Source: Camellia lanceoleosa
Taxonomy: Eukaryota; Streptophyta; Magnoliopsida; Ericales; Theaceae
DNA length: 64,000 bases
Reading direction: 5' to 3'
Assembly (NCBI GenBank): GCA_025200525.1
Contig: CM045762.1
Location: 191,853,154 to 191,917,153, forward strand
The position numbers and the translations under genes are program-made. Shown in pieces: positions 56,173 through 59,084 of this stretch; position 1 is the stretch's first letter; the number at the start of each line of letters is the position of its first letter. The notes beneath the pieces were generated by a model. That model ran no database searches, was not told the DNA's origin, and worked only from the letters and a program-made list of their open reading frames with translations.

Positions 56173-56412
56173 TGTAGGAAATTAATGTATAGATATTATT
56201 GATTGATTGTATTCAATATCTTGTGTCTTACATTTACAAGGAATAAGCTCTCTTTATAGAGAGGAGAAGGAGACAATAGGGGCAATAAACAAGTTGCCAT
56301 AATGGAGCACTAAACTAAATGGAGCACTTACACTAATGGAGCATTACACTAACTATAGTGGAGCATTACACTAATGGAGCATTACACTAACAATGGAGCA
56401 CTTACACTAATA
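56173..56412 (-). repeat. LTR (left, 3' in element orientation)
   Basis: Begins TGTAGGAAATTAATG and ends CACTTACACTAATA on the plus strand; identical to 58845-59084. Internally it repeats AATGGAGCATTACACTAA words several times. Confidence 0.95.
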
Positions 56413-56514
56413 GCCCCCCTCAAACTCAAGGAGGGTAGGTACTAACCAACTTGAGTTTGGAGAGAGTAACAAAACAGGAAAAAATAATCTGACAAATAAA
56501 AGAAAAACGGATAG

Positions 56515-56960
56515 GAGACACTGTATGGTCGTATCAGACCGATGTAGAAGACAGTTTATGGGGTCATGTCGGACCGTTGGTAGAAGATAGTTTAGGGGGT
56601 CATATCGGACCGATGTAGAAAACAGTTTATGGGGTCATGTCGGACCGTTGTAGAAAACAGTTTACTGGGTCATGTCGGACCGTTGTAGAAAAGAACCGAA
56701 ATCAATGTCGGAACAGTTTACCGAGTCTTGTCGGACCCATATAGGAGCTAACCGGAATCAATGTCGGGACAGTTTACAGAGTCTTGTCGGACCCATATAG
56801 GAGCTAACCGGAATCAATGTCGGGACAGTTTACAGAGTCTTGTCGGACCCATAAAAGTTGCACCCTCAAAAGGCGTGCCCAATCTTATCAAAAGGCGTGC
56901 CATCAAAAGACATGCCATCAAAAGGCGTGCCATTAAAAGATGTGCCCGACAGCCATCAAA
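56515..56960 (+). repeat. Tandem arrays inside the captured-gene element
   Basis: First array, about 56515-56860: TCATGTCGGACCGTTGTAG and CAGTTTA words at 35-40-bp steps, changing to a ~67-bp unit with AACCGGAATCAATGTCGGGAC and TTGTCGGACCCATA. Second array, about 56868-56960: CCATCAAAAGGCGTGCC repeated about five times. Confidence 0.88.
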
Positions 56961-57125
56961 AGGCGCGCCGATTTGTCGTCTGGCGTTGAGAGGCGCGTAA
57001 GGCGCGTGTCTGCTTTGCCTATTTAAACCAAGGCGAGGCTGCTGCTGATGCAGAACAAACCAGCTAAAAACCTCTGAAAAAATTCTTCATTTTCTTGAGA
57101 GAGATACTCTGAAAAACCTCTGAAA

Positions 57126-57440
57126 ATGGCTTCTTCTTCCCGTTCCGCTACCCAGAACATAGCCTCTTCTTCCCGAGGTCTGCTCACTCTCTTTCCCGAC
57201 CTCAATGAGTGCACAAGAGAGATAACCGGGGAAGTTGCCCTGGAACCGCAACCAAGCGCCCCTGGACCAAGCGCCCCTGGTTTTGCGCCTTTGAACTTTC
57301 CGATGCTGTCTGTGGAGCAAAGAATGGCTGCACAGTCGGATATTGAGGCGAATTATTACACACTGAAGTCATGTGTTGAGACCATGACTGCGGTCTCAAA
57401 CCTGTCGCACCGGCTTCAGAGTAGGACAAACGAGATCTAA
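57126..57440 (+). CDS. Small uncharacterised frame in the LTR element (ORF 1)
   Basis: 104 codons starting [18 protein letters not shown], then [11 protein letters not shown] and a Pro/Ala-rich part ([19 protein letters not shown]). A TATA-like CTATTTAAACC lies about 105 bp upstream (57018-57028) and a C/A-rich leader follows, so it looks like a real promoter-leader-start layout. The frame ends at TAA 57438-57440, a few bases before ORF 2. I do not recognise it. It runs antisense to the element's own orientation. Confidence 0.45.
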
Positions 57441-57454
57441 GCGATTAACGCTTA

Positions 57455-57700
57455 ATGGCTCTGCTCCAGGGCATGTATAAGGATGCCCGAGCAGAGATAT
57501 GTGGGCTAAAGGCAGAAAACAAGGAACTGAAGCGGAAGGCCACCGTGATGCTCAGATTTGGAGGTCTTCCATATGCGGCGGTGGAGGAGCAGCGGGAACA
57601 GAACGTGCTCGGTGGCGTCGGAAACACAGAGGCAGCACCGGCAAGGGACGCCCAAGACAAAGGCAAGAAGAAGAGAACAGCTGAAGAGGCAAAGAAGTGA
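57455..57700 (+). CDS. Small uncharacterised coiled-coil frame in the LTR element (ORF 2)
   Basis: 81 codons: MALLQGMYKDARAEICGLKA, then ENKELKRKATVMLR, coiled-coil-like, ending in a Lys/Glu-rich tail (KGKKKRTAEEAKK). It begins 15 bp after ORF 1's stop and may once have been one reading frame with it (NEI - stop - AINA - stop). A run of about 23-34 T follows the stop. Family unknown. Confidence 0.45.
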   Translation: MALLQGMYKDARAEICGLKAENKELKRKATVMLRFGGLPYAAVEEQREQNVLGGVGNTEAAPARDAQDKGKKKRTAEEAKK

Positions 57701-57908
57701 GGCCGTTTTTTTTTTTTTTTTTTTTTTTTTTTTGTAAAATGGTGATCGGGTTTGATCCCCGGCATGAATAAAATAAGGTTGGTGACATTACAGCAATTGC
57801 TTTCTCTTTTTGGATGACCCAGATTTTTATTTTTTATTTTTTTTCTGAGTATTCTAATTCTTGGAGAAGAAATCAAAGCCAAATGGCCCCCCAGATCCAA
57901 ATCCCCCT

Positions 57909-58510
57909 TAAGACCAGCTCCATGAATTGAAGTCCTAGTTTGGCAGCCTCAGTATTGGCAGACCTAACCAAATCTACAAAACCCGGAAGGCATCCTTTAC
58001 TGACAAGGGAAACCAAGTGATCCAGAATCAAACTTGGCCTTCCGGAACCTTCAGAAGGAGCAACACAGAGGTTACCTAAAACATATGCGACAGCCTTTCT
58101 TATGTCAAACGGTTCTGTTGAAAGTAGTCGCAGTAACAATGGTACAGCTTCACTTGAATAAATCAACTGCTTGTGTTCAATGGAACCAGCTGCTATGTTA
58201 GATAGCACCCAAGCTGCTTCCTTCTTCAATACCCGGTGCTCACTTTTCAGACATTTAATTAGAGCTGCTATGACATTATCTGTGATTCCATGTCCAGCAA
58301 CAAGAACATTAGTTTTGTGAGCATCACCGGCAACAAGATTACCTAGACTACGCAGTACCGGAATGAGCAATTGCAAGCTATTTGATGTTGCCAGTCTTTC
58401 CACAAGTAATTGAAGGAGATCACTCTTCACCAACATGCCGAAAGCAACATTGGAAAGGGCTGAAAGATACACAACCACCCATGCTACTTCTGTTGCCAGC
58501 TCCTCGCCTG
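57909..58510 (-). pseudogene. IMPA9: Importin-alpha (IMPA-9-like) fragment A, intronless
   Basis: Minus-strand frame of about 200 codons: EELATEVAWVVVYLSALSNV, LLQLLVERLATSNSLQLL, VLKKEAAWVLSNIAAGS, IRKAVAYVLGNLCV, FVDLVRSANTEAAKLGLQF and MELVLRG, then breaks off. These are consecutive ARM repeats of the plant importin-alpha-9 type nuclear-import receptor, which binds nuclear localisation signals. There are no introns across about 600 bp, whereas plant IMPA-9 genes, as I recall, are split into several exons, so an mRNA template is likely. The piece preceding it in the protein is next door on the other strand. Confidence 0.88.
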
Positions 58511-58750
58511 TTGCTGAGCAGTGTGCATGGGCATTGGGAAATGTTGTTGGTGAAGGGGAAGAACTTAGAAAAGTTCTGCTCTCGCAAGGAGCCTTACTAC
58601 CTCTTGCAAGAATGATGCTGCCAAATAAGGGTTCAACTGTGAGAACAGCTGCTTGGGCACTTTCAAATTTAATCAAGGGACCTGATCCAAGTGCGGCAAC
58701 AGAACTCATAAAAATTGATGGGGTACTTGATGCAATCACTCGAGCTTTGC
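58493..58750 (+). pseudogene. IMPA9: Importin-alpha (IMPA-9-like) fragment B, inverted
   Basis: The plus strand reads SSPVAEQCAWALGNVVGEGE, LSQGALLPLARMMLPNKGS, VRTAAWALSNLIKGPDP and ELIKIDGVLDAI, then diverges. In the intact protein this ARM block lies immediately before fragment A. Here it is joined head to head with it at about 58493-58510, and the junction has a short overlap (CTCCTCGCC region). This is a direct sign of inversion or template switching during capture. Confidence 0.88.
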
Positions 58751-58844
58751 TCTTCCAAATTCACACTCCAATCTCTTCCCAAGAAGCAACTGAGAGACAG
58801 TTTTGAAGCTTCCTTTCCTAGTCATCAATGGCGGACGAAACCCT

Positions 58845-59084
58845 TGTAGGAAATTAATGTATAGATATTATTGATTGATTGTATTCAATATCTTGTGTCT
58901 TACATTTACAAGGAATAAGCTCTCTTTATAGAGAGGAGAAGGAGACAATAGGGGCAATAAACAAGTTGCCATAATGGAGCACTAAACTAAATGGAGCACT
59001 TACACTAATGGAGCATTACACTAACTATAGTGGAGCATTACACTAATGGAGCATTACACTAACAATGGAGCACTTACACTAATA
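58845..59084 (-). repeat. LTR (right, 5' in element orientation)
   Basis: Identical to the left LTR over 240 bp by eye. Confidence 0.95.

Follow-up and report, generated by a model that had tools for sequence, protein, structure and literature searches.

Long terminal repeat (LTR) elements are known to capture host sequences, and passages in PMC2774510, PMC3726574, PMC4717578, PMC8764390, PMC5408686, PMC8232201, PMC13317346, PMC11963269, and PMC13174262 establish this kind of process. In maize, the LTR retrotransposon Bs1 carries exon-only pieces of three host genes (PMC8764390, PMC5408686, PMC4717578), and a template-switch model is given alongside Bs1 (PMC8764390, PMC5408686). The genome-scale figures given in the cited passages are 425 gene-fragment elements in 81 families for maize, with at least 189 captures and none with pieces of more than one standard gene (PMC2774510), and 672 and 1,343 LTR-captured genes for rice and sorghum, respectively (PMC3726574). 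Gene-carrying terminal-repeat retrotransposons in miniature (TRIMs), such as GmaRetroS15, are given as 30 elements in 7 of 289 subfamilies, all but two with at least two copies, and with exons only (PMC4717578). LTR-mediated retroposition (PMC8232201) and LINE-1 chimeras (PMC13174262) have also been described. The element analyzed here occupies positions 56173 to 59084 of a 64,000-nucleotide stretch of the Camellia lanceoleosa genome (the window, C5:191853154-191917153) and carries sequence of the host importin-alpha gene IMPA-9; genome searches were made in the window's own assembly (3.0 Gb, 790 contigs). We read the element, with a probability of roughly 0.8, as a recent insertion of a short, nonautonomous Camellia LTR family that acquires spliced host sequence by template switching.

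About 290 codons of intronless IMPA-9 sequence are present in the element, split into three noncolinear blocks (A, B, and C), one of which is inverted. An earlier reading of the letters alone (the sequence-only reading) had the amount and the lack of introns right but missed the rearrangement and the partial inversion. The native, intron-containing gene lies on the minus strand at C10:113656806-113677810 and matches the cargo exon by exon. Alignment to this gene, which had been proposed as a way of refuting capture, was not colinear with the introns: five introns of the native gene are missing from the cargo, and the source of the cargo was therefore spliced RNA. No further copies of the IMPA-9 pieces, beyond the native gene and the window element, were found among the genome matches listed. 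In the gene, the blocks follow the order C, B, A; on the element strand, C is reversed, B is reversed, and A is forward. Microhomology was found between the family module (see below) and A (5 bp, ATCCC, at 57901-57905), between A and B (8 bp, AGCTCCTC, at 58498-58505, present on opposite strands of the IMPA-9 message), and between B and C (3 bp, TCG), and block C meets the LTR terminus exactly, with zero shared bases. Among random joins (20,000 draws each), microhomologies of at least 8, 5, and 3 bp were obtained in 0.04%, 0.6%, and 6% of draws, respectively, with same-position joins included in the B-C control. A summed microhomology of at least 16 bp was reached in 0.09% of 200,000 random draws, which puts the joint chance of the three at ~9e-4.

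Relative to the reference gene, 14 of 932 bases are changed in the captured blocks, which also have a gap of a single base (~98.5% identity); 7 of the 14 changes are grouped into two short clusters, at 57954-57966 and at 58089-58104. In comparison with the C. sinensis protein P0056, there are four differences at the protein level, all of them located in the element and not in the native gene. The native exon at C10:113661845-113661995 has one extra base in a T run that the captured copy lacks; this looks like a frameshift, either a genuine one or an error of the assembly. In protein searches with the rearranged IMPA-9 sequence, no match spanned the rearranged joins, either among the best 120 of 203 hits or among the 81 hits of a second search, and importin matches covered at most 73% and 72% of the queries, respectively. 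A protein-making IMPA-9 retrogene was ruled out, as the blocks run in opposite directions.

An exact 26-mer spanning the junction of the primer-binding site (PBS) and the LTR occurs 331 times in the genome (0 times for the reversed control), which suggests hundreds of copies of the family to which the element belongs. The 3' module of the family is likewise present at high copy number (2,381 first-look candidates, 40 of which were scored). In all, 27 relatives were read: 14 chosen by LTR similarity (L031 to L044), 9 by module similarity (L057 to L065), and 4 by the 26-mer (L066 to L069, the first forward matches listed on C1, C2, C3, and C5). Cargo played no part in this choice, and 23 of the 27 are best LTR or module matches, a bias toward similar, probably young copies and not toward cargo. 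All 27 share a common frame consisting of a PBS, all or part of the module, and a slot of 1 to 2 kb between the two. The module is partial in some copies, and L043 and L067 retain its LTR-side part alone. The family's own module makes up 56% of the interior of the window element (56413 to ~57784; it extends to 57835-57905 in eight copies), so that the 2.4-kb interior, introduced in the sequence-only reading as an IMPA-9 carrier, does hold a cDNA-derived insert but is for its larger part family sequence.

The borders of the window element were as the sequence-only reading had described them. The LTRs are identical at 240 of 240 positions, the left flank ends in AAAAAA, and the right flank begins with AAAAA. 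Although this sequence is of low complexity, we still read it as a target-site duplication (TSD), because perfect 5-bp TSDs were found in all 19 relatives that could be placed (the ends of 4 of 23 were not placeable). On the minus strand, the left LTR is preceded directly by a polypurine tract (TGAGTTTGAGGGGGGC/TATTAG, with the slash at the border), which lies in the same position in relatives; therefore, the left LTR is the 3' LTR, and the element reads on the minus strand. No gag or pol Pfam domain was found in the 14 open reading frames (ORFs) of the 2,432-bp interior, again in line with what had been claimed. LTR pairs of relatives align at 91 to 100% (indels included) in 22 of 23 cases (in L038, automatic pairing picked the wrong repeats), and the LTRs are 98 to 100% identical in 16 of the 23 relatives with paired LTRs. 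The LTRs of the window copy, L031, L033, and L034 start with TA (TATTAG) on the element strand, and those of most relatives start with TG.

The lack of a PBS next to the right LTR, pointed out in the sequence-only reading, was borne out. The family PBS complement (exact TCTGATACCA, element strand) is absent from the window element by scan, and no PBS is visible in the 100 bases adjoining the right LTR. In contrast, all 23 relatives scanned have a PBS beside the 5' LTR, 20 of them with the exact sequence TGGTATCAGAGC and L040, L042, and L061 with a single-base difference; L066 to L069 have the PBS by selection. For want of a PBS, the window copy is a defective member of the family and not a complete element, and it appears to be a dead end. 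The end of block C (GAAACCCT) weakly resembles the family PBS complement (GATACCA), a post hoc likeness that we do not count as evidence. In the leader next to the PBS, 16 of 23 relatives have a GC-rich 12-bp hairpin, with 0 of 200 shuffles reaching the criterion (at least 11 pairs, at least 9 of them G-C) in each; the other 7 fall short of it. The hairpin shows G-U wobble and some compensatory changes and is a possible packaging or dimerization signal.

The module contains an ORF for which 54 protein matches were obtained; 46 of these are named, all 46 from Camellia (C. sinensis or C. fascicularis), and 8 are unnamed. It is intact in 5 of 24 copies, and the ratio of nonsynonymous to synonymous substitution rates has a median of ~0.22 over 10 pairs of intact copies; it therefore seems to be conserved somewhere. 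The ORF is broken in copies with identical LTRs, the window copy included, and is probably dispensable in cis. It has no Pfam domain above the cutoff. Membership in TRP28 was considered and rejected, as no TRP28 match was obtained for two pieces of the window ORF or for 6 related proteins. Two annotated tea proteins (P0042 and P0053) have a Mei2-type or CG-1 domain in combination with the module ORF. No reverse transcriptase was found in the family copies read.

Cargo differs from copy to copy. Among the slots of the first 15 relatives (L031 to L044 and L057) and the window element, only the ends are common, plus 193 bp between L036 and L041 (matches longer than 60 bp at E values up to 1e-5). 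Host Pfam domains above the curated cutoffs were present in 22 of 28 slots (27 relatives and the window element): Arm (window), GAT, Piwi, MBTPS1 plus RPN2, protein kinase plus PGK, HPAT plus Radical_SAM, ABC transporter plus DUF760, CCCH finger, Steroid_dh, H_PPase, Stress-antifung plus kinase, Aa_trans, Abhydrolase_2, GST plus WD40, Myb (two copies), Reticulon, PATROL1, Cys_Met, ABC2_membrane, GCFC, and CNOT1. The host-gene names of the slots rest on these Pfam hits. Host domains were also found in three of the four relatives drawn by the 26-mer, L066 being the exception. The sequence-only reading held that capture is rarely caught in this state; it is not rare here, with host domains in the same slot in 21 of 27 relatives and the PBS-LTR junctions numbering 331. 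Two or more host genes are present in at least 8 of the 28 slots (L034, L035, L037, L038, L042, and L058 by Pfam and L040 and L063 by genome match). No retroelement domain was found in 40 slot ORFs scanned in the 27 relatives, which comprised the longer ORFs and not all frames.

Spliced host exons were found in all seven slots that were compared with the genome (at most 40 candidates scored per search), and donor exons were mostly 93 to 100% identical to the cargo. Besides the window element, the L057 slot holds nine exons of a C6 gene (86 to 99%), flanked by element sequence common to a C13 copy at 99% and 88%, and the L040 slot holds two exons of a C1 gene (98%) beside a five-exon piece of a C8 gene (93 to 100%) that recurs in three other places at 89 to 91%. 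The L043 slot has seven exons of a C6 gene (97 to 100%), most of it common to a C8 copy and the remaining part recurring on C9. In L063, four exons of a C12 gene lie inside pieces of a C3 gene, one of them inverted, and a C4 copy is without the C12 part. The L060 slot holds six exons of a C7 gene (93 to 99%) beside 0.5 kb common to five other places at 98 to 99%. The L037 slot draws on four loci, located on C12, C11, C13, and C4 (the last contributing five exons), and a 376-residue ORF with HPAT and Radical_SAM domains crosses all four cDNA pieces (L037:2660-4000), possibly a new chimeric gene. In 4 of the 7 slots (those with IMPA-9, L057, L037, and L060), the newest cargo was found in a single element among the matches listed.

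Gene-carrying Helitrons are families that shuttle many different host gene pieces. Pack-MULEs also do so (PMC4717578 and the 2026 review PMC13317346) and contain both exons and introns (PMC4717578), whereas the Camellia family holds spliced sequence. Bs1 is, like the Camellia copies, an LTR element with exon-only host pieces, but it is told as one element in the cited passages, and the Camellia elements form a large family whose cargo differs. The captures reported for rice, sorghum, and maize are likewise host fragments within LTRs at genome scale (PMC3726574, PMC2774510); unlike those of maize as summarized there, the Camellia captures belong to one family, with more than one host gene in at least 8 of 28 slots. 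The gene-carrying TRIMs (PMC4717578) resemble the Camellia family in being small and nonautonomous, with exons only and sometimes several genes; in contrast to the figures given for them, 22 of 28 Camellia copies have host domains, with differing slots and a conserved module with an antisense ORF. The Camellia elements are 2.9 to 3.8 kb long with the module ORF present, compared to 1.2 to 1.4 kb for the TRIMs of PMC4717578. Retand shares with the family an antisense ORF and tandem arrays between the coding region and the 3' LTR; its ORFs are mostly described with a TRP28 domain and its LTRs as 315 to 1194 bp (PMC11963269), whereas the window ORF is without a Pfam domain above the cutoff and the LTR of the window copy is 240 bp. 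Among the papers listed in literature searches, no title or opening of an abstract described such a family in Camellia or a plant LTR family with host cDNAs that differ from copy to copy; because subscription papers were thinly covered, absence is unproven.

TABLE 1 Features of the window element and its immediate flanks
Feature	Position	Strand	Basis or remark
Target-site duplication AAAAA, left	56168..56172		Sequence
3' LTR	56173..56412	-	Identical to 58845-59084
Polypurine tract adjoining 3' LTR	56413..56429	-	TTGAGTTTGAGGGGGGC on minus strand; position kept in relatives
Family 3' module	56413..57905		Ends at 57772-57785 (most relatives) or at 57835-57905 (eight relatives)
Tandem repeat arrays, 35-bp x4.4, 56-bp x3.5, 15-bp x4	56537..56946		Tandem Repeats Finder
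Module ORF, antisense to element, broken here (stops and frame change)	57127..57700	+	Protein matches
Block A, IMPA-9 cDNA of five joined exons, in sense orientation to element	57901..58505	-	Native exons on C10
Block B, IMPA-9 cDNA of two joined exons, in inverted orientation to A	58498..58742	+	Native exons on C10
IMPA-9 cDNA block C, 5' untranslated region and first codons, ATG at 58828	58740..58844	+	105/105 identical to C10:113677706-113677810
5' LTR, cargo joined directly to terminus, without leader or PBS	58845..59084	-	Sequence
Target-site duplication AAAAA, right	59085..59089		Sequence

The family retains what replication needs in cis, namely, the LTRs, a tRNA-iMet-type PBS in a 5' leader that usually also has the GC hairpin, and the 3' module with the polypurine tract, and the cargo slot sits between leader and module. 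According to the template-switching model, the family RNA would be packaged in trans, in particles supplied by another element. Reverse transcriptase would jump at short homologies between element RNA and copackaged host mRNA or cDNA, and daughters would carry spliced host sequence, which may come from more than one gene and lie in either orientation. In the window copy, synthesis would have passed from the module to the IMPA-9 message (at ATCCC), from there to the opposite IMPA-9 strand (at AGCTCCTC), then to the IMPA-9 5' end (at TCG), and finally to the LTR terminus; this last join would have run to the LTR end instead of the leader, removing leader and PBS. The question of how an element without a PBS was primed, raised in the sequence-only reading, may have a simple answer: the site is truly absent, and given the normal PBS of the relatives, priming of the parent RNA was probably normal, with loss of the site in the daughter.

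Several observations weigh against this model or leave it without distinction from its nearest rival. The C/LTR junction is without microhomology, the 3-bp B-C join is unremarkable on its own (P ~0.06), and the joins fail to separate template switching from end joining. At the rate of change seen in the cargo, 7.2 differences would be expected in the LTRs and 0 of 480 were found (P ~7e-4); either the capture of IMPA-9 is older than the last transposition by at least one cycle, or copying was error prone. If capture predates the last transposition, capture and PBS loss are separate events. Six of the 28 slots (L031, L036, L044, L064, L066, and L062) are without a host Pfam domain above the cutoff; that of L062 has an EF-hand only, below threshold. 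The newest cargo of L040, L043, and L063 (3 of 7 slots) is also present in another contiguous copy, and capture is therefore not one per insertion. The layers are of mixed polarity: in L040 and L060, the newer cargo is next to the leader; in L057 and L063, older sequence encloses it; and in L043, it apparently lies toward the module. They therefore give no means of telling template switching from cDNA end joining either. No autonomous partner was identified, no dedicated search for one having been made. The idea that new cargo always sits on the leader side was dropped, being true of 2 of 5 layered slots.

The nearest rival, in which microhomology-mediated end joining would have linked cDNA fragments and element intermediates as DNA, ahead of integration, is unlikely without being far-fetched, as end joining also yields short microhomologies, inversions, and multigene mosaics and would suit cargo layers without a single polarity; host sequence inside older cargo in L057 and L063 is simply explained by a jump out and back, a weak argument for template switching with nothing decisive in it. 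That the IMPA-9 piece might act on the host IMPA-9 gene, for example via small RNAs, is very unlikely: one LTR would transcribe both strands of the IMPA-9 pieces, and the insert is ~98.5% identical to the gene, but blocks A and B overlap by only 8 bp, which leaves no long hairpin. Insertion of a twin-primed IMPA-9 retrocopy into an existing LTR element by the enzyme of a long interspersed nuclear element (LINE) is hardly credible; the block order (a 5' part in antisense followed by a 3' part in sense) is reminiscent of twin priming, and the minus strand has an A28 run (57706-57733) ~170 bp downstream, but block C stops exactly at the LTR terminus, other slots are multigene mosaics that return to the family leader, and the run sits inside the conserved family module, which ruled it out as a retrocopy tail. 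Just as implausible is a single chance transduction, in which an LTR element once caught IMPA-9 mRNA and the remaining interior is junk, since this fits the finding of IMPA-9 sequence, besides the gene itself, in this element only among the matches listed but is contradicted by a left interior that is a conserved high-copy module and by sister copies with other host cDNAs in their slots.

In its genomic setting, the window element is separated by 228 bp from a minus-strand open frame (55486-55944) in which Pfam recognizes a ubiquitin carboxyl-terminal hydrolase domain, and it is probably inserted within an intron of that gene. Elsewhere, the window contains, on the plus strand, a Ty3-type element remnant with gag, protease, reverse transcriptase, and integrase domains by Pfam (28931-33577) and a 409-residue reading frame of Glycosyl hydrolase family 17 (41236-42465), as well as an inverted repeat at 59464-59564 (49 nucleotides, 3-nucleotide loop, 94% complementary).

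Beyond the template-switching model itself, it is conceivable, and we advance it tentatively and with more doubt than belief, that the family picks up host mRNA routinely, and perhaps almost obligatorily, whenever it replicates; new copies would then be snapshots of the transcriptome in which older cargo is partly overwritten, and the leader hairpin, the module ORF, or weak processivity might be the dedicated cause. LTR capture of cellular mRNA has usually been pieced together from scattered cases, and here one genome offers apparently hundreds of related copies. With older and newer cargo next to each other, the rate of capture, the sites of joining, the switching of strands, and the choice of donors become directly measurable. 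The family writes new chimeric reading frames, as in the L037 ORF with its pieces of four loci, and it can leave tea annotations with intronless fragments of genes and with false gene models.

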